Assembly: GCF_028561275.1 (NCBI RefSeq)
Contig: NZ_JAQQTF010000002.1
Coordinates: 124,001 to 188,000, forward strand
DNA: 64,000 nucleotides
Direction of reading: 5' to 3'
From: Aureisphaera galaxeae
GTDB lineage: Bacteria > Bacteroidota > Bacteroidia > Flavobacteriales > Flavobacteriaceae
Under the pieces are notes generated by a model. The model did no database searches. It was not told the DNA's origin and saw nothing but the letters and a program-made list of their open reading frames with translations. The position numbers were made by a program, and so were the translations under genes. This document shows positions 1,408 through 46,839 of this stretch, in pieces; positions within the stretch are counted from its first letter, which is position 1, and each line of letters starts with the position of its first letter.

Positions 1408-3507
1408 ATGGCAAAACAGTTTAATGTTGCACTTATTGGTAACCCAAACACAGGAAAAACATCCGTTTTTAACCGACTTACCGGCCTTAATCAGAAAGTA
1501 GGGAACTATCCTGGAATTACGGTAGAAAAGAAAGAAGGTATTTGCAAACTCGACCGCGGTGTAAAGGCCCATATTTTGGATCTCCCCGGAACCTATAGCC
1601 TCAATGCTTCTTCTTTAGACGAGAATGTAGTGATAGAGCTCATGCTCAACAAAAACGATAAGGATTATCCCGATGTGGCCGTTGTCGTTTGTGAAATTGA
1701 AAACCTGAAGCGTAATCTACTGCTCTTCACCCAAATAAAGGATTTGGGAATCCCTACCATTTTGGCGATCAACATGTCCGATAGGATGAAGCGCAAGGCG
1801 ATTTCCTTGGACATTGAAAAGCTCGAAGAGCGGCTCGAGACGAAGATTGCGCTCATAAGTTCCCGAAAGAACACAGGATTCGATGCCCTGAAAAGCTTAA
1901 TCGCCAATTACAAACAAATCTCTACCAAACCTTGTTTGGATGCATCGGTCATAGCACCGGAATATTTCGATCAACTGAGGAAGACCTTCCCCAATCAGGA
2001 TTTATACAAGCTCTGGTTGGTCATTACCCAAGATGTCAACTTCGGGAAGTTGGACCGAAACGAATTTCAAGGGGTAGGATCCTTTAAAACAGAATCTAAG
2101 AGTAATCTTAAGCGGCTTCAGCAAAAAGAAACCATTAAGCGCTACCAGTTCATTAACGAAGTGCTCAAGGAAACCTTAGAAATTGATACCGCCAATGCCA
2201 AAGACTTTAGGAGTCGATTGGATCGTATCCTTACCCATAAAGTGTGGGGTTATTTTATTTTCTTCGGAATTCTATTGCTCATTTTCCAGGCGATTTTCGA
2301 CTGGAGTGGATATCCCATGGATTTCATCGATGAATCTTTTGCTTCATTGAGTGAATGGGTAAAAGATACGTTGCCCCCCGGGGATTTCACCAACCTCTTG
2401 GCCGAAGGAGTCATTGCTGGTCTAGGCGGGATCGTTATTTTCATTCCACAGATTGCCTTTCTATTCCTGTTTATTTCGGTGTTGGAAGAGAGCGGCTATA
2501 TGAGTCGGGTAGTATTTTTAATGGACCGTGTTATGCGTCGCTTTGGACTTAGTGGAAAAAGCGTGGTTCCCCTAGTGTCCGGGACAGCCTGTGCCATTCC
2601 CGCCGTGATGGCGACACGAAATATCGAAAACTGGAAAGAACGTCTTATCACCATATTGGTTACCCCATTTACCACTTGTTCGGCACGTCTTCCCGTGTAT
2701 CTTATTATCATCTCATTGGTGATTCCCGAAGAACGTGTATTAGGTATTTTCAATCTTCAAGGACTTACGCTTATGGCCCTTTATCTGTTGGGCTTTGGAG
2801 CTGCTATTTTCTCGGCCTATTTGTTGGACAAGATGCTAAAGATTCGAAGTAGATCCTTTTTTGTGATCGAAATGCCCAATTACAAGGTGCCCATGCCCAA
2901 AAATGTATTGATTACCGTAATAGAGAAGACCAAGTCCTTCGTTTTGGGAGCGGGAAAAATTATTTTGGCTATTTCCATTGTACTTTGGGTGTTAGCTTCC
3001 TATGGTCCGGGCGACTTTAATAATGCGGACGAAATTGTACGGCAACAAAACATAGGTACTTCACTTACTGAAGAAGAGATCGAAACCGAAATAGCTTCCT
3101 TTAAATTGGAAAAGTCCTATATCGGCATTCTGGGAAAAGCCATTGAACCCGCTGTTGCTCCTTTAGGGTATGATTGGAAAATAGGAATCGCTGTGATAAG
3201 TTCGTTCGCAGCCCGTGAAGTATTTGTAGGAACCCTGGCAACCATTTATAGCGTGGGAAGTGAGGAAGAGGAAACAATTAAAAATAGAATGGCGGCCGAA
3301 GTCATTCCGGGAACAAACAAACCTAGATTCAATTTTGCCAGTGGAATTTCCCTATTGCTGTTTTATGCCTTTGCGATGCAGTGTATGAGTACCCTAGCGA
3401 TTGTGAAACGGGAAACGAACAGTTGGAAATGGCCGATGTGGCAATTAATAGGAATGTCGGTGATAGCGTATATCACTGCGCTAATCGCTTACCAAATTTT
3501 AAATTAA
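1408..3507 (+). CDS. feoB: FeoB, GTP-dependent ferrous iron transporter
   Basis: A 699-residue inner-membrane Fe(II) importer. The N-terminal G domain shows GNPNTGKTS (G1, residues 11-19), the G3 motif DLPG near residue 58, and the G4 motif NMSD near residue 122, followed by a helical GDI spacer. From about residue 285 onward there are two Gate segments and core helices, including PLVSGTACAIPAVMATR and TPFTTCSARLPVY, which carry the conserved cysteines. The length is full. It follows feoA by two bases and is followed by a small Cys-rich protein 12 bases downstream, so the three form one operon under the operator at 1153-1169. Confidence 0.96.
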   Translation: MAKQFNVALIGNPNTGKTSVFNRLTGLNQKVGNYPGITVEKKEGICKLDRGVKAHILDLPGTYSLNASSLDENVVIELMLNKNDKDYPDVAVVVCEIENLKRNLLLFTQIKDLGIPTILAINMSDRMKRKAISLDIEKLEERLETKIALISSRKNTGFDALKSLIANYKQISTKPCLDASVIAPEYFDQLRKTFPNQDLYKLWLVITQDVNFGKLDRNEFQGVGSFKTESKSNLKRLQQKETIKRYQFINEVLKETLEIDTANAKDFRSRLDRILTHKVWGYFIFFGILLLIFQAIFDWSGYPMDFIDESFASLSEWVKDTLPPGDFTNLLAEGVIAGLGGIVIFIPQIAFLFLFISVLEESGYMSRVVFLMDRVMRRFGLSGKSVVPLVSGTACAIPAVMATRNIENWKERLITILVTPFTTCSARLPVYLIIISLVIPEERVLGIFNLQGLTLMALYLLGFGAAIFSAYLLDKMLKIRSRSFFVIEMPNYKVPMPKNVLITVIEKTKSFVLGAGKIILAISIVLWVLASYGPGDFNNADEIVRQQNIGTSLTEEEIETEIASFKLEKSYIGILGKAIEPAVAPLGYDWKIGIAVISSFAAREVFVGTLATIYSVGSEEEETIKNRMAAEVIPGTNKPRFNFASGISLLLFYAFAMQCMSTLAIVKRETNSWKWPMWQLIGMSVIAYITALIAYQILN

Positions 3508-3519
3508 TATCTTTAGTGT

Positions 3520-3678
3520 ATGCAAACGATATTGGTCATCATTACATTTTGTCTGGCAATGGGCTTCTTATTGAAGAAATTCGTTTGGAATCCTATTTTC
3601 GAGACTCGCCAGAAGTCTTTAGGGACCTTAGATGGTGATAAAACCAAGTGTGGCAACGATGATTGTGGGTGCCACTAA
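3520..3678 (+). CDS. FeoB-associated Cys-rich membrane protein
   Basis: A 52-residue protein found by translating the gap after feoB: one N-terminal transmembrane helix (residues 3-20, TILVIITFCLAMGF), a basic linker, and a C-terminal cysteine cluster CGNDDCGCH (C44, C49, C51). This architecture matches the FeoB-associated Cys-rich family, small proteins placed directly after feoB that probably bind iron or help the transporter. It starts 12 bases after the feoB stop. The last four bases overlap the stop of the convergent gene at 3675, so there is no room for a terminator between them. Confidence 0.82.
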   Translation: MQTILVIITFCLAMGFLLKKFVWNPIFETRQKSLGTLDGDKTKCGNDDCGCH

Positions 3679-4085
3679 TTACCGCCTTCACCAATAAGTA
3701 ATGAGTAGGGGCCCATTTCCTTTTCGTTCTCCGGATAAGGATTTACCGCCATTAGCTCGATAAAATAACCTTCCTTTTTATAGAACGTTTTATTCTTGGA
3801 AACGGCATCCGTAGCGCCTAGGGTAACCTCATGCATAGTAGCCTCTTTTCCTTTTTCCTGAATGGCTACTTCCACGCGTACCTCACCTGCCCACATGCAA
3901 TTTACATACTTGGGACAACGGGAATCTTCCAATACCTTGACAAAAGTGATGGACACATCTCCCAAAGTCACCGTTTCATCCAATGCTACCTTCACCCCAA
4001 TTTGCGGGGAAGCGGCTTTTTCTTCTTGCGCCATAAACAATGTGGGAATTAAAAAAACGATAAAATATAGATACTTTTTCATCAT
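3675..4085 (-). CDS. Secreted protein of unknown function with a CPxxVxCxWAG motif
   Basis: A 136-residue exported protein. The N-terminus MMKKYLYFIVFLIPTLFMAQ is a signal peptide cut after AQ. The mature part starts with VKVALDETVTLGDVSITFVKVLEDSRCPKYV-type beta strands and holds a conserved-looking motif DSRCPKYVNCMWAGEV, whose two cysteines are six residues apart and may form a disulphide. I recall this motif in small periplasmic proteins of Bacteroidota, but I know no function. It is a single gene lying tail to tail with the feo operon (4-base overlap) and just downstream of the Mn-transport operon, separated from it by a terminator. Confidence 0.7.
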   Translation of the reverse strand: MMKKYLYFIVFLIPTLFMAQEEKAASPQIGVKVALDETVTLGDVSITFVKVLEDSRCPKYVNCMWAGEVRVEVAIQEKGKEATMHEVTLGATDAVSKNKTFYKKEGYFIELMAVNPYPENEKEMGPYSLLIGEGGN

Positions 4086-4113
4086 AAATTCATTGTAATC
4101 ATAAAGGTATTGG

Positions 4114-4145
4114 AAAAAACCGTGCCAACTTTCCGTTAGCCACGG
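4114..4145 (-). terminator. Terminator of the Mn/Fe ABC operon
   Basis: Read leftwards, CCGTG (4145-4141) pairs with CACGG (4124-4120) around a 16-base loop, followed by six T residues (4119-4114). The stem begins inside the last codons of the permease gene, so the stop codon lies in the loop. Confidence 0.6.
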
Positions 4146-5296
4146 AATAGGAAGAAGTCATCCTTCATGGGCTCTATCTTTTCATCCTTATTGGTAATGA
4201 TGTATTCCAAGGCCAATTCGGTAAATTCTAAGCCCTTTTCGGTAAGGGAAACAATATCATCTTCAATGGAAATCATGTTGTTCTTTAAGGCCAAATCCAC
4301 CACCGTTTTAGAACGTACTTTTTGCCAGTTAATGTGCTCATTAAGGTGATTAATATGGCGTTCGTTAATATCTTGGTGGTTGTTGAGGTGCAATAAAAAA
4401 GTGAGCAAGGATACTTCGGTACGTTGTTGTCGCTGTCGATACAGCACGGAAATCAATCCTTTGTTGGGAGCAAAAAGATAGACCGACAAAAACACCAATC
4501 CCAATACGGACGTCATCGCTCCCGAGATGGAGGCATCCAACAAATGCGCAGCCCAGTAACCCATAAGGGCAGAGGCTACTCCAAAGGCAATGGAAAGTCC
4601 GATCATCTTCTTCAAATCACTGGTAAGAAGATAGGCGGTGGCTGCTGGAGCAATCATAAGTGCGACCACAAGGATGGCTCCGACGGCATCAAAAGCCCCC
4701 ACCACGGTAATAGAGGATACCGACATAAGACCATAGTGCATAACGATGGGCGATATACCAAGGGCTGAAGATAAACCAGCATCGAAGGTGCTTACTTTCA
4801 ATTCTTTAAAGAAAAGGAAGAGTAGTGCTAAGGTACAGATGAGGATGATTCCCATGACCCAAAGGGATTTAGGGCCAACATCTGCTCCGAACAATTCCAA
4901 CCGATCGAAAGGCGCAAAGGCCAATTCACCCAATAATACCGCATCTACATCCAAATGTACATCGTTAGCATTTTTGGCAATAAGAATGACACCAATGCTG
5001 AAAAGGGCAGGGAAGACCAAGCCTATGGCCGTATCTTCTTTTACTAAGCCCGTTTTCTGAATGGCCTCTACCAAGACCACGGTAATCACACCGGTAATCG
5101 CAGCTAACAAGATAAGCCAAGGGGAGTTGAGATCATGTGTTAGAAAGAATCCTAAAACGATCCCAGGCAGAATGGAATGACTAATCGCATCACTAATCAG
5201 TGCCATTTTCCGAAGTACTAGAAAGACCCCTGGAATGGCGCAGGCGATGGCCACCACCATGGCGATAAGCTGTATTTCAATCTGCGGTGCGGTCAT
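4136..5296 (-). CDS. Metal ABC transporter permease (second subunit), with C-terminal extension
   Basis: A 386-residue ABC-3 family permease for Mn, Fe or Zn. About eight to nine membrane helices fill residues 1-285, with the typical ALISDAISHSILPG loop near residue 35 and the GAILVVALMIAPAATAYLL segment near residue 205. The remaining 100 residues are hydrophilic and helical, with a pattern (NERHINHLNEH, KTVVDLALKNNMIS, DIVSLTEKGLEF) that looks like a winged-helix domain related to the N-terminal part of DtxR-type regulators. The gene overlaps the upstream permease by 20 bases, so translation is probably coupled. It is the last gene of the operon. Confidence 0.88.
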   Translation of the reverse strand: MTAPQIEIQLIAMVVAIACAIPGVFLVLRKMALISDAISHSILPGIVLGFFLTHDLNSPWLILLAAITGVITVVLVEAIQKTGLVKEDTAIGLVFPALFSIGVILIAKNANDVHLDVDAVLLGELAFAPFDRLELFGADVGPKSLWVMGIILICTLALLFLFFKELKVSTFDAGLSSALGISPIVMHYGLMSVSSITVVGAFDAVGAILVVALMIAPAATAYLLTSDLKKMIGLSIAFGVASALMGYWAAHLLDASISGAMTSVLGLVFLSVYLFAPNKGLISVLYRQRQQRTEVSLLTFLLHLNNHQDINERHINHLNEHINWQKVRSKTVVDLALKNNMISIEDDIVSLTEKGLEFTELALEYIITNKDEKIEPMKDDFFLFRG

Positions 5297-6413
5297 CTGC
5301 GAGTTGTTGGTTATACAAATTTTCAGCCTTATGGAATCCTTTAGAAGTCAATGCCCATTGCTGTCCCGTAATGGTGATCCAGTCCTTTTCTTCCATTTTC
5401 TGAAGGGTTTTTCGGGTAAACCCTTGAAAGTTGTTCAATATTTTTATCGCATGGGGATGCTTTATGTTTTCATGATTCACAGCAATACTATGCATGAACT
5501 GAAGGGTTTTCTGAAGTTTTAGATCCCTTCGGTTTTTCCGGAAACGCAATTGCCGAAACAGAATACCCCTTCCTGGGGAAAAAATGAAAGAAACAATGAC
5601 AAAGACGGCCGCCACCAAAACAATAACAGGCCCAGTGGAAAGGTTGTTCTGTGAAGCACTAATAGCTGTTCCAAAAACGCCTGAAAAGGCGCCAAATAAG
5701 GCCGCTAAAAAGATCATAATGCTGAGTCGGTTGGTCCATTGCCTTGCCGCTGCTGCAGGCGCCAATAGCATTGCGCTCATTAATACCACCCCTACGGTCT
5801 GTAGCCCTAAGACAATAGCCAAAACGATAAAGAAGGTGATAAGAATATCGATAAATCGAATGTTGAATCCCAAGGTTTTTGTAAAATCGGCATCGAAGAG
5901 CATGATTTTGAATTCCTTCCAGAAAAGCAATAGTACGACCAAACAAATCCCGGTAACTGTGGTCATGAGCCAAACGTCTTTTTCGACCAAAGTAGCTGCT
6001 TGTCCGAAGAGATATTTGTCCAATCCCGCCTGATTCGCATTGGGCTGCTTCTGAATAAAGGTGAGCAGGAGCATTCCGAATCCGAAAAATAGGGAAAGAA
6101 TAAGTCCTAGTGCTGTATCCGTCTTAAGATGGGTTTTGGTAATCATCCCCCGAATCCAAAAAGTGCCGATAAGACCACTTACCAAAGCACCCAATAGCAA
6201 AACGTTGGTGTCTTTAGCGCCTGTAATTAAAAACGCTAAGGCGATTCCAGGTAAGGCCGCATGGGAAATAGCGTCTCCCAAGAGACTTTGTTTCCGAAGC
6301 ACAGCAAAACTTCCCAACATACCACAAATAGCACCCAAAACGGCTGTTCCCAACGTAATGGTCCGAAGGGTGTAATCGCTTACTACTAATTGAAAGTATT
6401 CGGTTATTGACAT
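5277..6413 (-). CDS. Metal ABC transporter permease (first subunit), with C-terminal extension
   Basis: A 378-residue ABC-3 family permease, partner of the next gene in a heterodimer. The N-terminal part shows the family loop SLLGDAISHAALPGIALAF (about residues 44-62) and the VGVVLMSAMLLAPAAAARQW segment near residue 210. After the last membrane helix (about residue 285, ending near SFIFSPGRGILF) comes a basic stretch and a 90-residue cytoplasmic domain with GFTRKTLQKMEEKDWI and ALTSKGFHKAE, again of winged-helix type. Having the same extension on both permeases suggests an old tandem duplication. A short repeat-rich gap separates it from the ATPase gene. Confidence 0.88.
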   Translation of the reverse strand: MSITEYFQLVVSDYTLRTITLGTAVLGAICGMLGSFAVLRKQSLLGDAISHAALPGIALAFLITGAKDTNVLLLGALVSGLIGTFWIRGMITKTHLKTDTALGLILSLFFGFGMLLLTFIQKQPNANQAGLDKYLFGQAATLVEKDVWLMTTVTGICLVVLLLFWKEFKIMLFDADFTKTLGFNIRFIDILITFFIVLAIVLGLQTVGVVLMSAMLLAPAAAARQWTNRLSIMIFLAALFGAFSGVFGTAISASQNNLSTGPVIVLVAAVFVIVSFIFSPGRGILFRQLRFRKNRRDLKLQKTLQFMHSIAVNHENIKHPHAIKILNNFQGFTRKTLQKMEEKDWITITGQQWALTSKGFHKAENLYNQQLADDRTAD

Positions 6414-6417
6414 TTTT

Positions 6418-6466
6418 TAGTCGATGGTCTTTAGTCTATGGTCTATCGACCAACGACTATAGACTA
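6418..6466 (-). repeat. Repeat-rich palindromic spacer between ATPase and permease genes
   Basis: This 49-base spacer is built from variants of TAGTCTATGGTC. It contains nested inverted repeats: TAGTCTAT at 6432-6439 with ATAGACTA at 6459-6466, an inner GGTC/GACC pair, and outer TAGTCG/CGACTA. It overlaps the stop codon of the ATPase gene. It looks like a dispersed intergenic element, but only one copy is seen here. Confidence 0.5.
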
Positions 6467-7198
6467 TTTATTTATCGCGACCTTATAATTAATTCCGTAG
6501 GTCTTCGTAAGATTATCATCATTAAAAATATCCTTTACGGGTCCGGTTGCAATCTTCTTCACATTCAGGAAGGTTACCCAATCAAAATATTCAGGAACCG
6601 TTTGTAGATCATGATGTACTACAATTACCGTTTTTCCGGCTTTTCGCAGTTCCTTCAGAATATTGATAATGGCAATTTCTGTGGTAGCATCTACTCCTTG
6701 AAAGGGTTCGTCCATGAAATAAATTGAAGCATTCTGGACCAAAGCACGTGCAAGAAAAACCCGTTGCTGCTGTCCTCCACTCAACTGACTTATCTGTCGG
6801 TTCTTAAAGGAAAGCATGCCTACTTTTTCCAAAGCTTCCAAAGCGGCCTTTTTTTCTTTGGAACCGGGACGTTTTATCCATCCCAAGCTACCATAGGTAC
6901 CCATCATTACTACGTCTAAAGCGGTCGTTGGGAAATCCCAATCCACGCTTCCTTTCTGTGGTACGTAAGCCACTAATTTTCGTTGTTTGTCGTAGGGTTT
7001 TCCATAGATAGAAACACTACCTGCAATGGGGTCTATAATTCCCAAAATGGCCTTAATGAGTGTGGATTTTCCAGCACCATTGGGTCCGACGATAGCCATA
7101 AGCACCCCTTCAGGAATAAAGAGGTCAATATCCCAAAGCACGGGCTTATAATTGTAAGCCACGGTAAGGTCATCTACTTGTACGGCTATTTTTTCCAT
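6464..7198 (-). CDS. Metal ABC transporter ATP-binding protein
   Basis: A 244-residue cytoplasmic ATPase that powers the manganese/iron importer. Walker A is GPNGAGKST (about residues 39-47), the Q-loop is [13 protein letters not shown], the signature is LSGGQQQR, Walker B is IYFMDEP, and the switch histidine is in VVHHD. The DWDFP sequence after the Q-loop is typical of the Mn/Zn/Fe (MntB/ZnuC/TroB) branch. It starts one base after the stop of the binding-protein gene and precedes the two permeases, the normal order for this importer class. Confidence 0.93.
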
Positions 7199-8113
7199 TT
7201 ACTTCAATTCGTCTACAATGGTATTTACGTTGTATTGAAACATCCCAATATAGGTTCCTTCTACCGTTCCGGGGTCTCCAAGGGCATCACTGTAGAGCGA
7301 TCCTCCAATTTTCACATCAAAATCTTTGGCCTTTACAGCTTCTTGTAATGCTTCGATGGTCCTTCTTGGCACCGAGCTTTCTACAAAGATAGCTTTCACT
7401 TGCTTTTCAATAATGAAATCGGAAAGGCGTTGCACGTCTTGTACCCCTGCTTCGGTGGCGGTAGAAAGTCCCTGTAGTCCTACCACTTCAAAATCATAGG
7501 CTTCTCCGAAGTAGTTAAAGGCGTCGTGGGCTGTTACCAAGATGCGCTGTTCCTTTGGAAGGGTGGTTACTTTGGCTTCCAATTCAATCTTCAGTTGATC
7601 TAATTGGGCAAGGTACTTGGTTTCGTTCTTCACATATTCTACACTGTTTTCTGGATCTTTTTCAGAAAGTATAGCGGTCACCTTGCGAGCAAATTCCTTG
7701 AAATAGTCAATATTGAACCAAACGTGCGGATCGTAATTCGAGGCAAAATAATCGGACCCGATGAGGCCGGATTTATCCAAAATTTCCCCAAGGGCCACTT
7801 GGGTTTTGGTGTCACTGCCCATTTTTTCGAAGACTTCTACCAACTTTCCTTCCAAATGAAGTCCATTATAGAAAATGACATCTGCATTGTACAATTTGGA
7901 AACATCGCCTTCGCTGGCTTTGTAGAGGTGGGGATCTACCCCAGCGCCCATAAGTCCATTCACTTCAATATAATCACCTCCAATATTTTTAACCAAATCG
8001 GTAATCATGGTAGTGGTAGTGACCACATTTAGTTTGGCATTTTTCTTTTCTCCTTCCCCTTTGCAGTTTAGGAGTAGAAGACTCATGCATAGTATAAAAA
8101 TCGTCTTTTTCAT
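7199..8113 (-). CDS. Metal-binding lipoprotein of Mn/Fe ABC importer (cluster A-I)
   Basis: A 304-residue periplasmic binding lipoprotein. The signal MKKTIFILCMSLLLLNC ends in a lipobox (LLNC, lipidated C17). Four predicted metal ligands are visible: His in GVDPHLYK, His in DPHVWFN, Glu in IFVESSVP and Asp in SLYSDALGDPG. The His-His-Glu-Asp set is the manganese/iron type (MntA, PsaA, TroA), and the His-rich loop of zinc-specific ZnuA is absent, so Mn(II) or Fe(II) is the expected cargo. It sits between the outer-membrane barrel gene and the ATPase gene. Confidence 0.9.
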   Translation of the reverse strand: MKKTIFILCMSLLLLNCKGEGEKKNAKLNVVTTTTMITDLVKNIGGDYIEVNGLMGAGVDPHLYKASEGDVSKLYNADVIFYNGLHLEGKLVEVFEKMGSDTKTQVALGEILDKSGLIGSDYFASNYDPHVWFNIDYFKEFARKVTAILSEKDPENSVEYVKNETKYLAQLDQLKIELEAKVTTLPKEQRILVTAHDAFNYFGEAYDFEVVGLQGLSTATEAGVQDVQRLSDFIIEKQVKAIFVESSVPRRTIEALQEAVKAKDFDVKIGGSLYSDALGDPGTVEGTYIGMFQYNVNTIVDELK

Positions 8114-8119
8114 GATCTG

Positions 8120-8917
8120 TTATTTAGGGATTCTATAACTGGCACCTACCGATAGCAATAAGTCCTGTCCTTCGGTAATGCTGGTACCTACGGTGGCATC
8201 CAATTGTAAGTTGTTTTGTACGAGATACGTTAGTCCTGCATCCCAGAAATGATTTGCTTTACTGTCTTCGGGGAAGTCGCCATATACTTCGGCATAGACC
8301 CCAAACTTGTCAGTAATGCCGTAACCATAAGCCAAGGTATAGATATAGGCCGCTTCTGATGAATCGTTGCCCCATTCGGCACCAATGTTATAAGCGATGC
8401 TCGATGTTTCCGAAAGCGTATGATCGAACGAAAGTCGAAAATCCACGCCGGTCGTTTCGGGCCTGTAATCGGAAGACGCGCTTAATGGCAAAAACACGTG
8501 CCCAATTAAACCAATGGTTGGTAATAGGCCATCTTCTTGGGTAATATTTACCTTCATTCCCGCTAGGAGGGGAGAGAATCCACTTTGAACGTCATCCAAT
8601 CGGGTGCCACCAATAGACGTTCGGCCTTCTTCGAAGTTCCACCCCAGACGCAATTCAAGATTATCCAAGACACCATAGCGAAGGAGCGTGGTGTTATACC
8701 CCAGTACTTCCTGTTTTATATTGTCCTTCTCAAAGGAAGTATAGAATGCCCCGGTTTCAATCTGCAATAAACCTACAGGCACTGTTGATGGCGATTCGGT
8801 AGCATCGGGGCGATCGGTAATAAGTTCCGGATCGACTTGATACGTATCGTCTTGGGCAAAGGTCTGTAACGTAGCGCACAGAAGAAATAATAGAATAGAT
8901 AGTTTGGTCGGTTTCAT
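8120..8917 (-). CDS. Outer-membrane beta-barrel protein of the metal-uptake operon
   Basis: A 265-residue outer-membrane protein. The chosen ATG at 8917 follows the regulator stop by one base and opens a clean signal peptide (MKPTKLSILLFLLCATLQTFAQ); an ATG six codons earlier would overlap the regulator. The early motif ELITDRPDATESPSTVP and the alternating amphipathic strands match the barrel family annotated as MetA-pathway of phenol degradation or simply transporter. Its place inside a metal-importer operon suggests it is the outer-membrane pore for the metal; that role is inference from context. Confidence 0.78.
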   Translation of the reverse strand: MKPTKLSILLFLLCATLQTFAQDDTYQVDPELITDRPDATESPSTVPVGLLQIETGAFYTSFEKDNIKQEVLGYNTTLLRYGVLDNLELRLGWNFEEGRTSIGGTRLDDVQSGFSPLLAGMKVNITQEDGLLPTIGLIGHVFLPLSASSDYRPETTGVDFRLSFDHTLSETSSIAYNIGAEWGNDSSEAAYIYTLAYGYGITDKFGVYAEVYGDFPEDSKANHFWDAGLTYLVQNNLQLDATVGTSITEGQDLLLSVGASYRIPK

Positions 8918-8918
8918 G

Positions 8919-9575
8919 TTAGGTAGTTTGTACATATAGGTTTTCTGCTGTTTTTTTTGAAATGAAAAATTGATCCCTTCCTACTTGAATGATCATGGAT
9001 CCATCGAAAAACTCCTTTCCCAATACGGTAAGCTTGGTGCCAATAGTAATTTTTCTTTTGTCCAAATATTGAAGGAATTCACTGCTGGTCTCCTTAACCC
9101 CCACGCAAACTCCTTTTTGTTTTTTGGTGAGTTCGGAAAGCAGTTTTTTCTCGGTTTTCTTTACGTTTCCATTTTTGTCTGGAATGGGATCGCCATGAGG
9201 ATCGAAATCGGGGTGACCCAAGTATTTGTCCAAGCGATTGATGAGCTCTTCGCTGTGAATGTGCTCCAATTGCTCTGCAATTTCATGAACCTCATCCCAA
9301 TGAAAGTCTAGTTTGTCTACCAAAAAAACTTCCCATAAGCGATGCTTACGAATTACGCCTGCAGCGGTTTTTCGTCCCTTGGTGGTAAGAGAGGTCCCCT
9401 TGTATTTCTTGTACGATAAGGCTCCTTTTTCTGCCAGTTTCTGTACCATATCGGTAACGGAAGAAGGTTTGGTGTTTATTTTATCCGCTATGGAATTGGT
9501 GCTCACACCTCCCTTGGATTCCTGCTCCAAATGGTAAATGGCTTTTAAATAATTTTCTTCGGCTAATGAAAACAT
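8919..9575 (-). CDS. mntR: DtxR/MntR-family metal-dependent transcriptional regulator
   Basis: A 218-residue repressor. Residues 1-65 form the winged-helix DNA-binding domain (NYLKAIYHLEQ, TKPSSVTDMVQKL, YKGTSLTTKGRKTA), then the metal-binding and dimerisation domain (HRLWEVFLVDKLDF, EVHEIAEQLEHI, HPDFDPHGDPIP), and a C-terminal SH3-like FeoA domain from about residue 150. The metal ligands are expected in the His/Glu-rich HEIAEQLEHIHSEEL segment. It is the first gene of the importer operon, so it probably represses its own operon when Mn(II) or Fe(II) is abundant. A palindromic operator lies at 9612-9640, and the promoter box ends five bases before the ATG. Confidence 0.92.
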   Translation of the reverse strand: MFSLAEENYLKAIYHLEQESKGGVSTNSIADKINTKPSSVTDMVQKLAEKGALSYKKYKGTSLTTKGRKTAAGVIRKHRLWEVFLVDKLDFHWDEVHEIAEQLEHIHSEELINRLDKYLGHPDFDPHGDPIPDKNGNVKKTEKKLLSELTKKQKGVCVGVKETSSEFLQYLDKRKITIGTKLTVLGKEFFDGSMIIQVGRDQFFISKKTAENLYVQTT

Positions 9576-42592: not shown

Positions 42593-43438
42593 CTAAACAA
42601 TTACAAGTTGAATAGCCTCCATAGGCTGTTTCTGTGCCAACCGATTAATAGATTCCTCGGTCAATTGTAAGACACGGGCATACCCTCCTGTAGTTTGTGC
42701 ATCGCGCATGAGCACGACCCATTTTCCGGACGGGGTTAATTGTATTGTTCCCGGTTGCACGGGCGCTGTAATGATTTCCGGTGCCGAGATTTCCGTTTCC
42801 GAATTCAAGACATAAGCCATACGATTGCTATTAGGAGAAACGGTAAAGGTGAGTCGTTTCAATTCTTTTTGAATTTCCTTCGGAAGTAGATAAAACTCAG
42901 GCCCTTTAAAAGCTTGTATCTGCATGGCACTAAAATGCGCTTCCCGAACCTTGACGGAAGCATTAGGAATCACTTCCTTTAAGGGAAGACTTTGTAAAGG
43001 GATGCTGTCTCCTTTTTCCAACCTTCCTTTGTGGGTGATTCCGGTATACCAACTCCTACTTCCCAGTATTCTTTCCGATTGAATACCACCTGCGGCTGAT
43101 AGATAACAACGTACTCCATACATGGGTTTCCCAAATCGTAATTCACTGTCTTTTGGAACCATAATTGGGGTATTGTTGGCTATCGATTTTCCATTTAAAG
43201 CAGGGGAAAGATCTGCTCCAGTTAAGGCGATTATCGTATTTTCTGTGAAGTGCAGTGTGGGTCCTTGCAGTGTGATTTCGATCACTGCTTCCTCAGGGTC
43301 ATTCCCCGCCAATCGATTGGCCAATTCTGCCGAATAGAGATCCATGGCACCACTTATAGGCACACCATATTTTCGGAAGCCGTAACGCCCCAAATCCTGA
43401 ATGCTGGTGTACAAACCCGATGTAATTACCTTAATCAT
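42593..43438 (-). CDS. pxpC: 5-oxoprolinase subunit C (biotin-dependent carboxylase-like, KipA family)
   Basis: A 281-residue cytoplasmic subunit of the ATP-dependent 5-oxoprolinase (PxpABC), which opens 5-oxoproline to glutamate. The family's cyclophilin-like core is visible in YTSIQDLGRYGFRKYGVPISGAMD (residues 8-31, DLGR and GAMD motifs), the GSRSWYTGITH turn and RMAYVLNSE. It is the last gene of the operon; its start overlaps pxpB by eight bases. Confidence 0.93.
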   Translation of the reverse strand: MIKVITSGLYTSIQDLGRYGFRKYGVPISGAMDLYSAELANRLAGNDPEEAVIEITLQGPTLHFTENTIIALTGADLSPALNGKSIANNTPIMVPKDSELRFGKPMYGVRCYLSAAGGIQSERILGSRSWYTGITHKGRLEKGDSIPLQSLPLKEVIPNASVKVREAHFSAMQIQAFKGPEFYLLPKEIQKELKRLTFTVSPNSNRMAYVLNSETEISAPEIITAPVQPGTIQLTPSGKWVVLMRDAQTTGGYARVLQLTEESINRLAQKQPMEAIQLVIV

Positions 43439-44159
43439 GATAAGGGACTTTGTCTAGTAAGTAAATGCCGTTTTCCACTAAAGCGTGGATATGCTCAAAC
43501 TCTTTTGTTGAAATCGGCTTAAATTTCACATAGTCCCCAGCTTCGATAATTGCTGGCGGTTGTTTGGTAGGATTGAAGAACGAAAGGGGACTTCGCCCGA
43601 TTAGATTCCATCCTCCGGGAGAGTCCATAGGGTAGATGCCCGTTTGTTTTCCTCCAATGCCCACAGATCCTTGTGCTACTATTGGTCTCGGATCGTCCTT
43701 TCTAGGAGTGTGCAATTTCGGATTCAGTTTTCCCAAATAGGGGAATCCGGGCAAAAAGCCCAGAAAGTAGACTTTATACATGGCTTCGGAATGAAGCTGG
43801 ATGACTTCGTCCTTTGAAAGATTGTGATAATGGGCCACATTTTCCAAATCAGGAGCAAAATCTTTCTCATAGCAAACGGGAATGGTAATTAAATGATGCT
43901 CGTCTGTACTTTCTTCTTGTTTTGCGGTTTTGAAAGAGGCTTTGATGGATTTCAAAAACGTATCGGGATCCACACCTTCTTTCAGATATACGACCAATGA
44001 CTGATAGGTCACTACCGTTTCTAGGATTTCTTCGCCATAGTTTTCAGTCATAAATCGGTCCCATCGTACTGCTTCTGCATGCACTTCCGCATCGATAATG
44101 GACTCCCAAGAAATGAGTGCCGCTCTATCACCAAAACGTTGAAAGGAAGGAGGTTTCAT
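43431..44159 (-). CDS. pxpB: 5-oxoprolinase subunit B (KipI family)
   Basis: A 242-residue cytoplasmic subunit of 5-oxoprolinase. I start at the ATG at 44159, which overlaps the stop of pxpA by four bases and opens MKPPSFQRFGDRAALISW; the frame itself extends further upstream into pxpA and is not coding there. Landmarks are YLGFLPGFPYLGKL (about residues 121-134), GSVGIGGKQTGIYP and SPGGWNLIGRSP. KipI homologues in Bacillus also control the sporulation kinase KinA, but this is the oxoprolinase subunit. Confidence 0.93.
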   Translation of the reverse strand: MKPPSFQRFGDRAALISWESIIDAEVHAEAVRWDRFMTENYGEEILETVVTYQSLVVYLKEGVDPDTFLKSIKASFKTAKQEESTDEHHLITIPVCYEKDFAPDLENVAHYHNLSKDEVIQLHSEAMYKVYFLGFLPGFPYLGKLNPKLHTPRKDDPRPIVAQGSVGIGGKQTGIYPMDSPGGWNLIGRSPLSFFNPTKQPPAIIEAGDYVKFKPISTKEFEHIHALVENGIYLLDKVPYHD

Positions 44160-44890
44160 ATGGCCAATTGTATGGAATGGTTGCGTATCTGATCCCTTAT
44201 ATGTTTCAGTATAGCTATCGAATGTTCGTGATCTCCATGAATGCAATAGGTAGCCGCTACGATGTCTTGAAAACTTCCCGAAAGCGTTCGAACCTGTTGT
44301 TTCTCGGCCATATAATGGAGTTGTTCCCAAGCCGCTTCGGGCTCATGGATCAAGGCTCCGCTTTCACTTCTGGAGACCAACGAGAGATCGTCATTATACC
44401 GTCGGTCTATAAAGGCTTCGAATACCAATGGGAGTAGATTTTCGGCTTTTTTAGCTAAGACAGAGTTGTGCAATACATATAATTTGGGTCTTACTTTAGT
44501 GGCTACAATTGCTTCAACCACAGCATCGGCAGTGGGAGCATCCTTGGCAGCGTAATTGTACAGAGCCCCATGCAATTTAATATGATGCAATTTGGCCCCT
44601 TCGGTTTCACAAATTGCATAGAAATGCAATAACTGTTCAAAAATGGATTCGGAAAGTTCGCTTTTGGTCAATGTTAGGATTTTTCTTCCGAAGTTATCTT
44701 TATCGGGAAAAGAGGGGTGTGCGCCAATCTTTACTCCATGTTTCATGGCCAATCGCACAGCCGTTCGCATGCTCTTTTCATCTCCATAGTGTCCGCCACA
44801 GGCGATACTGCAAGAGGAAATCAATGGCATGATGGCGGCATCGTTTCCCGTACCTTCTCCTAAGTCTGCATTGATGTCGATAGTAATCAT
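44156..44890 (-). CDS. pxpA: 5-oxoprolinase subunit A (LamB/YcsF family)
   Basis: A 244-residue cytoplasmic subunit of 5-oxoprolinase. The N-terminus shows the family signature IDINADLGEGTG (residues 4-15), then SCSIACGGHYGDE and GVKIGAHPSFPDKDNFGRK, whose His and Asp residues form the active site in related polysaccharide deacetylase-fold enzymes. Its start codon overlaps the Nramp-like gene stop by one base, so the order of transcription is transporter, A, B, C. Confidence 0.93.
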   Translation of the reverse strand: MITIDINADLGEGTGNDAAIMPLISSCSIACGGHYGDEKSMRTAVRLAMKHGVKIGAHPSFPDKDNFGRKILTLTKSELSESIFEQLLHFYAICETEGAKLHHIKLHGALYNYAAKDAPTADAVVEAIVATKVRPKLYVLHNSVLAKKAENLLPLVFEAFIDRRYNDDLSLVSRSESGALIHEPEAAWEQLHYMAEKQQVRTLSGSFQDIVAATYCIHGDHEHSIAILKHIRDQIRNHSIQLAI

Positions 44891-46116
44891 TACAGGTCGA
44901 TATTAAATACTTTGAACAGACTTCTTGCACCCAAAACAAGAGCAGTTAGAATAATAAGCCATCCCAAGATATTCTGAAAACGGGTGTTCTTGTACGTCCC
45001 TAAAACCGATGTTTTGTTCACGACCCACAAGAGGAAAATTGCGATAATGGGAAGTAGTAGCCCATTGGCTACCTGAGCGAATTTTATGATTTCAATAGGG
45101 CTAATTCCGATGGAAGAAAAAACGACGCCGAGTACCAATACGAAAATCCAAACAGCACGAAAACGACCCGAAGTTAATCCGGCATTCCACCCGAAACATC
45201 CCCGAACCACATAGGCCGCGGCCAAAGGTGCGGTTATGGCAGAGGTAATTCCAGCAGCGAACAATCCTATGCTAAGGAAATATTTGGAAAAGCTCCCAAA
45301 GAGCGGTTCCAGTCCCTTGGCCAAATCGGAGGCATTCTTAATTTCGGTCGAATTTATGGCCGCCGCGCAAATGATGATCGCCATGGATACCAATCCTCCC
45401 AAAATGATGGAAACCCGAGCATCTTTTCGGGCGGTTTGCAAATCGTCTACCCCTTTCCATTTTTCCCCGACTAAAGAGGCGTGAAGGAAAAGGTTGTAGG
45501 GAACCACCGTGGTTCCTACAAGAGCGATGACGGTGAGCCATCCCTCTTCGGGAACTTTTGGAATGAATATGCCTTTAAGAATTTCGATAAGGTTGGGGCC
45601 TGTAAGTGCCGCTGTGATTAAAAAGGAAAGACTCATAAGCACCACCAAAAAGACAAGGCTGCGTTCCAGTATTTTATAATTTCCAATGAATAACAGGACA
45701 AAGGCTAGAATCCCAATGGCAATGCTTAAGGTATTTATGGTATAGTCGAATACAGTGATTCTAGCATTGGGCACTAGGGTTTCCAGTCCCAAAGCGCCAC
45801 CGCTAATATTTCCGGCTTCGTAGGCAGCGTTTCCTATTAAAATGGCCGAAAGCATTAAGAGAATGGCAACCCATTTCCCTAAAGGAGACTTCATTTCACT
45901 TTTAACGGTTTCCGCGAGTCCTTTGCCTGTTACCAATCCCAATCGTGCTGCCATTTCCTGAAGCACAATGGTAGCAATAATAGAGAGTAACATGGCCCAA
46001 AGGAGGGTGAATCCATGGTTCACGCCAGCAAGGGTACAAACGGTAACAGTCCCCGGACCAATGAAAGCAGCCGCTACCAGAGTACCTGGGCCAATTTTGG
46101 AAAAGAAGTTTTTCAT
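44890..46116 (-). CDS. Nramp-like transporter lacking the canonical metal ligands, linked to 5-oxoprolinase
   Basis: A 408-residue inner-membrane protein with 11 helices and the Nramp fold. In canonical Nramps helix 1 carries DPGN and helix 6 carries MPHN, which together supply the Asp, Asn and Met metal ligands. Here helix 1 reads GPGT (residues 20-23) and helix 6 reads VPYN (residues 205-208), so all three ligands are replaced. It is the first gene of the pxpABC operon. Bacillus YcsG, also in an oxoprolinase operon, is a related Nramp-like protein. I infer a substrate such as 5-oxoproline or a related acid in place of a divalent metal; this is a prediction. Confidence 0.82.
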   Translation of the reverse strand: MKNFFSKIGPGTLVAAAFIGPGTVTVCTLAGVNHGFTLLWAMLLSIIATIVLQEMAARLGLVTGKGLAETVKSEMKSPLGKWVAILLMLSAILIGNAAYEAGNISGGALGLETLVPNARITVFDYTINTLSIAIGILAFVLLFIGNYKILERSLVFLVVLMSLSFLITAALTGPNLIEILKGIFIPKVPEEGWLTVIALVGTTVVPYNLFLHASLVGEKWKGVDDLQTARKDARVSIILGGLVSMAIIICAAAINSTEIKNASDLAKGLEPLFGSFSKYFLSIGLFAAGITSAITAPLAAAYVVRGCFGWNAGLTSGRFRAVWIFVLVLGVVFSSIGISPIEIIKFAQVANGLLLPIIAIFLLWVVNKTSVLGTYKNTRFQNILGWLIILTALVLGARSLFKVFNIDL

Positions 46117-46305: not shown

Positions 46306-46839
46306 ATGAAAAAGTACTTCAATGTAGCATTAGGCCTATTGGTTATTCTTGCGGTAACCATCGCCTGCGACAAGGACGAGACCGTACCAACGGAGAGTGC
46401 AGATCTTGTACATCAACAAACCAACACCGAAAGAGGGTTGTATTTCCCTTGGGATTATGTAATGGATTGGCGTTATAGCCGCTTAGAGTGTGCCACCGGG
46501 CCTGGGGTGTGCTTTAGAAATGGCTATGGTGACATTTTTAGAATGTACACCAAAGGGGACGATCCTGTAGGGGAAGTAACCGAAATGATGGCAAGGCTTA
46601 TGGCCGATTACCAAGATCCAGAAGATGGATTGATCGTTTTCAGTATCGAGGGAAACACCCTAAACCTTATCTTTTCCAGAGAACTGGAAGAAGGACAGTT
46701 TATCGTAGAAAGCGATGAGGTGATTCGTGGTGAATTGGCCGAGCGCTTGGGGCGTGACCAGATCGTGATTCCAGCAGGAGAGTATGAAGTGCAGTACGGA
46801 AATTACGAACATGGGGAAACCCATATCGAAATTGAGTAG
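46306..46839 (+). CDS. Hypothetical lipoprotein
   Basis: A 177-residue lipoprotein. The signal MKKYFNVALGLLVILAVTIAC ends in a lipobox (C21), followed by DKDETVP. The mature part contains two Cys in SRLECATGPGVCFRNG that may form a disulphide, and an acidic C-terminus with several Glu. No family recognised. It stands alone, with a clear terminator downstream and the pxp operon divergent upstream. Confidence 0.68.
   Translation: MKKYFNVALGLLVILAVTIACDKDETVPTESADLVHQQTNTERGLYFPWDYVMDWRYSRLECATGPGVCFRNGYGDIFRMYTKGDDPVGEVTEMMARLMADYQDPEDGLIVFSIEGNTLNLIFSRELEEGQFIVESDEVIRGELAERLGRDQIVIPAGEYEVQYGNYEHGETHIEIE

Follow-up and report, generated by a model that had tools for sequence, protein, structure and literature searches.

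The window analysed here, a stretch of 64,000 nucleotides from the genome of Aureisphaera galaxeae (contig NZ_JAQQTF010000002.1, positions 124,001 to 188,000), carries an Nramp-related gene directly in front of the genes for a 5-oxoprolinase, which raises the question of what a protein related to metal transporters moves across the membrane in such a place. Published accounts of Nramps linked to pxp genes are in conflict, as MntG and MumT have been described as Mn(II) importers and PxpT as an importer of 5-oxoproline.

An Nramp-related protein heads a complete pxpABC operon

The operon and the positions of interest within its first gene are as follows.

42593..43438, minus strand: pxpC, 5-oxoprolinase subunit C (PF02626, 236 bits)
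43431..44159, minus strand: pxpB, 5-oxoprolinase subunit B (PF02682, 230 bits; TIGR00370, 200.8 > 145.6)
44156..44890, minus strand: pxpA, 5-oxoprolinase subunit A, LamB/YcsF family (PF03746, 262 bits)
44890..46116, minus strand: Nramp-related transporter gene of the GPGT clade, 408 aa, ATG start, first gene of the operon
45493..45504, minus strand: VPYN, unwound motif of TM6, residues 205-208, replacing MPHN
45808..45810, minus strand: Asn103 of TM3, replacing a conserved Glu (DraNramp E134), invariant in the clade
46048..46059, minus strand: GPGT, unwound motif of TM1, residues 20-23, replacing DPGN

PxpABC is complete, its three subunit genes lying next to each other and in one operon with the Nramp gene, and PxpC scores below the NCBIfam PxpC equivalog cut-off (195 < 500). 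The genes overlap at every junction: by 1 nt between nramp and pxpA (TAATG), by 4 nt between pxpA and pxpB (ATGA, with the pxpB start set at the ATG inside this overlap) and by 8 nt between pxpB and pxpC (ATGATTAA). Divergently from the operon, and sharing its intergenic region, runs a small lipoprotein-like gene of 177 aa (46306-46839, plus strand), for which a Pfam search gave no match.

The 408-residue protein matches PF01566 along its full length (298.7 bits), misses the NCBIfam cut-offs for MntH (155 < 430) and TIGR01197 (116 < 272), and passes only the looser model NF037982 (95 > 50). In fold it resembles the canonical Nramp/MntH proteins DraNramp and BfraNramp (TM 0.79-0.83), from which it differs in lacking the DPGN of TM1, the MPH of TM6, and both the Glu134 and the TM9 Arg of the proton path. 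Alignment to DraNramp places G20 at D56, T23 at N59, T202 at A227, V205 at M230 and Y207 at H232; along the proton path, E134 is replaced by N103 and R353 by W323, the region of the TM9 Arg reading V322/W323. The initial annotation of this locus had described a tightly overlapping operon with the Nramp gene in front, had read GPGT and VPYN at residues 20-23 and 205-208, and had noted the loss of the metal-binding Asp, Asn and Met, all of which the overlaps, the translation of the reading frame and the alignment reproduce exactly. Its further statement that all metal ligands are replaced holds for Asp, Asn, Met and His and goes too far for the Gln of TM10, which is retained (DraNramp Q378, here Q348).

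An AlphaFold2 model (mean pLDDT 89.7), built from an alignment that leaves out two plasmid rows, has the LeuT/Nramp fold. Its TM1 is interrupted at residues 19-20 and its TM6 at 204-205, the positions that are unwound in this fold. Since the breaks coincide with the changed motifs, the altered residues are predicted to lie at the substrate site. The next-best folds after the Nramps belong to APC transporters (the GkApcT homologue 6f34, ApcT, BasC and AdiC), of which, at 13-16% identity, the protein is not a member.

The altered site is fixed throughout a clade

The search for homologues covered 297 genomes from the same phylum, 250 genomes of the Clostridia group, 80 named contigs and plasmid records. 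In the resulting tree, the window protein belongs to a GPGT clade that forms one side of a branch with an SH-aLRT support of 97, and whose hosts comprise Bacteroidota, Clostridia, Halanaerobia (Natroniella) and plasmids of haloarchaea (Haladaptatus, Haloarcula). In the motif alignment, all sampled GPGT rows (59/59) have Gly for the TM1 Asp, Val for the TM6 Met, Tyr for the TM6 His and Asn for the TM3 Glu, whereas D, N, M, H and E are all retained in 12/12 rows of canonical Nramps, and the NRMT proteins keep the TM1 Asp in 12/12. This fixation rules out that the motifs changed by chance or by a local mutation. Furthermore, N103, T202, T203, Y207, N208, S292, Q348 and N351 are invariant among 51 aligned sequences, and are candidates for a polar, uncharged binding pocket.

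One subgroup of the clade (L041, L042 and L047, about 3000-7180) reads VTYN or VAYN in TM6. Its Nramp genes adjoin genes for the alpha and beta subunits of a 2-oxoacid:ferredoxin oxidoreductase, not an oxoprolinase, and the genomes encode HyuB; the substrate of this subgroup may be another carboxylate. Elsewhere in the clade, in two genomes, a DUF2891 lipoprotein-like gene lies directly before or overlaps the Nramp gene (L009:387-1508, L035:4841-5995).

The clade is linked to two unrelated 5-oxoprolinases

The close clade of the window protein, defined by scores above 340 bits, occurs in 37 of the 297 Bacteroidota genomes, and PxpA is encoded in 36 of these 37, lying within 1.3 kb of the transporter gene in 32 genomes and within 30 bp in 30. 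Linkage with pxp genes, on which the initial annotation had staked its functional proposal, is thus near-invariant at this level. In the 37th genome (G283, L028), the neighbour is HyuB, a hydantoinase/oxoprolinase. More distant GPGT members are found in 27 further genomes, of which 21 encode HyuB, in several cases adjacent to the transporter, and six encode PxpA elsewhere. Taken together, each of the 64 Bacteroidota genomes with a GPGT protein (four of which, G008, G058, G207 and G279, were classed by score and genus, with the motif unread) encodes exactly one type of oxoprolinase: PxpABC in 42, the hydantoinase-type HyuAB in 22, and both in none. Exactly one of the two oxoprolinases is present in 64/64 genomes with the clade against 38/233 of the others, or in 31/31 genera against 26/110; the corresponding Fisher values (1.6e-38 and 8e-16) are indicative only, as neither genomes nor genera are fully independent.

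When mapped on the tree, the partner changed between pxp and hyu at least six times; counted by adjacent genes only there are four swaps, and four are forced by well-supported branches. Gene order changes as well: nramp-A-B-C in Bacteroidota, A-(D-Glu cyclase)-nramp-B-C or a divergent arrangement in Clostridia and Halanaerobia, and nramp-hyuA-hyuB in haloarchaea and some Bacteroidota. With order, orientation and partner enzyme all varying by lineage, the operon is not a merely inherited neighbourhood. Because two unrelated partner enzymes replace each other beside the same transporter, the common factor would be their substrate, 5-oxoproline, and not a metal.

The transporter, too, is exchanged. 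Among the Bacteroidota PxpA loci that lack the GPGT clade, nine have a YcsG-type protein, several have no adjacent transporter, and two carry an MFS transporter between pxpC and pxpA (L265:5635-6870, L275:5435-6673), a candidate for a third type of 5-oxoproline importer; at a further pxp locus (L268), a GPGT protein is truncated at the end of a contig. Where transporter families replace each other within a catabolic operon, one would expect them to import the substrate, not a cofactor metal.

Hydantoins are also accepted by HyuAB-type enzymes, a racemase belongs to one haloarchaeal GPGT locus, and the Clostridial operons encode a D-glutamate cyclase of PF07286, a family of 5-oxoproline-forming enzymes. 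Together with the subgroup beside 2-oxoacid:ferredoxin oxidoreductase genes, these observations would suit a neighbouring organic substrate, such as 5-oxo-D-proline, hydantoins, pyroglutamyl dipeptides or another small carboxylate, and the genomic context accommodates 5-oxo-D-proline, hydantoins and pyroglutamyl peptides about as well as 5-oxoproline. We nevertheless consider such a substrate unlikely for the window protein, given that the known common substrate of PxpABC and OPLAH-type HyuAB is 5-oxoproline, and that the close clade is so consistently tied to PxpABC. At four Clostridial loci (L130, L198, L202 and L204), an SSF symporter, a histidine kinase and a sigma-54 response regulator flank the pxp and nramp genes, and in L202, L204 and L130 the nramp gene sits between kinase and regulator, an arrangement that may point to sensing of 5-oxoproline.

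A second lineage beside YcsG, PxpT and MumT

YcsG/MntG and PxpT, which represent the 'G-motif 3' Nramp-related group, and MumT of A. baumannii share PF01566 and the LeuT fold with the window protein, and the YcsG/PxpT group likewise stands in operons with pxpABC and D-Glu cyclase. A YcsG-type clade occupies the pxp operons of many Clostridia (L218-L232), the nine Bacteroidota loci mentioned above, and records of Bacillus badius, Deinococcus, Shinella, Lactiplantibacillus, Fusobacterium and Acinetobacter. Its motifs are GPGF in TM1 and GGTVGGY in TM6, as against GPGT and GTTVVPYN in the GPGT clade, and it lacks the TM10 Gln that the GPGT clade has. By Foldseek against the deposited B. subtilis YcsG model 9a52, the window model reaches 22% identity (TM 0.79), whereas a model from the pxp-linked Clostridial clade reaches 68% (TM 0.98), which places YcsG in the other clade and not in that of the window. 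PxpT of C. glutamicum is 50% identical to YcsG (PMC13274462) and therefore should fall there as well. Our first assumption, that the window protein is a YcsG orthologue, was abandoned on the grounds of this low identity, the tree and the structure search.

In the tree, the GPGT and YcsG-type clades are separate (supports 97 and 100, respectively), the latter standing on a very long branch of 3.6 changes per site. In both, Asp56 has become Gly, Glu134 Asn and His232 Tyr. Constraining all GPGT members together with the YcsG clade carries no likelihood cost (AU p = 0.508), and constraining the two pxp-linked clades alone is not rejected either (AU p = 0.142). The initial annotation had invoked Bacillus YcsG as an analogue and had suggested checking for a single ligand-less clade beside pxpABC. 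The analogy stands insofar as the YcsG clade does adjoin pxp genes, although YcsG is no close relative, and ligands are lost in both groups, which nonetheless form at least two clades. A second lineage that has lost the same ligands and tracks two oxoprolinases would lend independent support to an organic substrate.

An Acinetobacter baumannii locus (L239, NZ_CP077849.1, 6001-12097) contains a YcsG-clade Nramp, PxpA, D-glutamate cyclase, a PxpB-PxpC fusion and biotin carboxylase, and matches the published mum operon, in which mumT is accompanied by LamB-type, hydrolase and biotin carboxylase genes. The reading of the mum locus as 'urea carboxylase' plus Mn import may thus deserve a re-test with 5-oxoproline.

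A possible alternative: metal import by a rebuilt site

The family name invites another explanation, namely that the window protein is a divalent-metal importer for Mn(II), Fe(II) or Mg(II) with a rebuilt site, supplying a cofactor to 5-oxoprolinase. Cellular Mn rises on overexpression of YcsG/MntG, whose operon is bound by MntR (PMC10448178), while deletion of mumT lowers cellular Mn (PMC5050338). Import by YcsG was concluded from overexpression and the effects of multiple mutants, in a study that also raised polar effects against the earlier 5-oxoproline evidence for YcsG (PMC10448178), and import by MumT from deletion phenotypes (PMC5050338). These reports concern the other clade, not that of the window. 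Second, the structure closest to the window model is that of the Mg transporter EleNRMT (TM 0.85, 28% identity), which also shares a Thr at the position of A227. However, NRMT proteins keep the TM1 Asp and a TM6 Trp where the window protein has Gly and Tyr, and their motif DxxG - TxxA/T is not matched by its GxxT - TxxV. Mutating the TM1 Asp strongly compromises transport by EleNRMT (PMC8806188), and it is precisely this Asp, conserved in every NRMT and canonical row, that is Gly in every sampled row of the GPGT clade, leaving the TM1/TM6 site with neither an acidic nor a thioether side chain. On the other hand, simultaneous replacement of the Met, Asn and Ala of its site leaves EcoDMT able to transport Mn (PMC8806188), and partial loss of ligands is therefore no proof against a metal.

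A third argument for metal import would be that the genome has no canonical D-motif Nramp, none having been found among its PF01566 matches. Two further matches were considered as canonical MntH and rejected: L002 (C11:51303-52313) is a very divergent Nramp-related protein with IGVSHLVQS in TM1 and no DPGN, and L003, the third PF01566 match of the genome, is a weak SSF symporter-like match. The window itself, however, carries a dedicated metal importer of another kind.

4136..9575, minus strand: metal ABC importer (SBP, ATPase, two permeases), DtxR/MntR-type regulator and outer-membrane protein (PF01297, PF00950, PF01325/PF02742)

Its permeases have C-terminal extensions and its regulator has a FeoA domain. 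With this importer for Mn or Zn about 35 kb away, the pxp-linked gene need not be assigned a role in metal supply. Metal import would also leave the partner swaps between unrelated enzymes with a common substrate, and the filling of the same slot by MFS proteins, without an obvious reason, and we therefore regard it as very unlikely.

Proposed function and mechanism

Judged from sequence and genomic context, the window Nramp is very likely an importer of 5-oxoproline (pyroglutamate), and would represent a second lineage beside PxpT. Import of 5-oxoproline or a related compound had been suggested in the initial annotation, and gains support from the linkage, the replacement of the partner enzyme and the replacement of the transporter in its slot, as well as from the D-glutamate cyclase of the Clostridial operons, whose family forms 5-oxoproline. 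A strain deleted for the distantly related PxpT fails to grow on 5-oxoproline and is rescued by complementation in trans, metal transport not being excluded by the authors (PMC13274462).

Genomic linkage alone does not give the direction of transport, and 5-oxoproline arises in all cells, spontaneously from glutamate and glutamine, so that an exporter might be imagined instead. Such an exporter would vie with PxpABC for one substrate, and PMC13274462, including its account of Niehaus 2017, describes a need for PxpT and YcsG in the use of external 5-oxoproline, as well as the Bordetella TRAP system for 5-oxoproline (DctP6/7) as an uptake system; export thus seems extremely unlikely to us. TRAP transporters and the MFS proteins of L265 and L275 take the same role or slot with folds unrelated to that of Nramps.

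In the importer model, an inner-membrane secondary transporter of the LeuT fold would bring in 5-oxoproline, which PxpABC from the same operon would open with ATP to glutamate, feeding carbon and nitrogen metabolism. APC amino-acid transporters bind the carboxylate of their substrate with a Gly-rich, unwound TM1. By analogy, the Gly-Pro-Gly-Thr break of TM1 may offer backbone amides to the carboxylate of 5-oxoproline, while its lactam could be held by the invariant N103, T202/T203, Y207/N208, S292, Q348 and N351, among them polar residues of TM3, TM6 and TM10. Transport might be coupled to Na+ or to the proton that the carboxylate itself brings, instead of relying on the Nramp proton path; Thr/Ser residues of TM8 resemble an Na2 site, at which canonical Nramps carry hydroxyls too.

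A likely local source of pyroglutamate would be the organism's own exported proteins. In Bacteroidota, exported proteins follow a Q-rule, starting with Gln that is cyclised to pyroglutamate (PMC5837995), and turnover of such proteins may release the residue. Gln occupies +1 at 41 of 98 signal-peptidase sites, as counted by a crude signal-peptide rule in the window plus 395 kb of the genome, which also encodes a plant-type glutaminyl cyclase.

Implications for the Nramp family

The link of YcsG and PxpT to 5-oxoproline (PMC13274462) and the Nramp-related 'G-motif' groups (PMC12873925) were already known. In the literature library searched, the separate GPGT clade, the 64/64 association with two oxoprolinases and the repeated partner swaps were not described, and no publication connected Nramp proteins with a hydantoinase. 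GPGT genes now carry the label 'Nramp family divalent metal transporter', which is probably wrong. The present analysis gives a likely function to one of those groups that a 2026 survey would count as 'entirely uncharacterized' (PMC12873925). Furthermore, the GPGT lineage renders the conflict between MntG/MumT and PxpT testable.

A bolder reading, which we find possible but rather doubtful, joins the glycine-motif Nramps (GPGT together with YcsG, PxpT and MumT) into one organic-acid branch, in which MntG and MumT would be 5-oxoproline importers with indirect effects on Mn; metal transport may then be a derived trait, and the origin of the family may lie nearer to the APC amino-acid transporters. 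If the GPGT proteins are indeed importers of 5-oxoproline, the Nramp fold can abandon metals altogether, and for Bacteroidota, which cap their exported proteins with pyroglutamate, the operon suggests a route by which this residue would be recycled.
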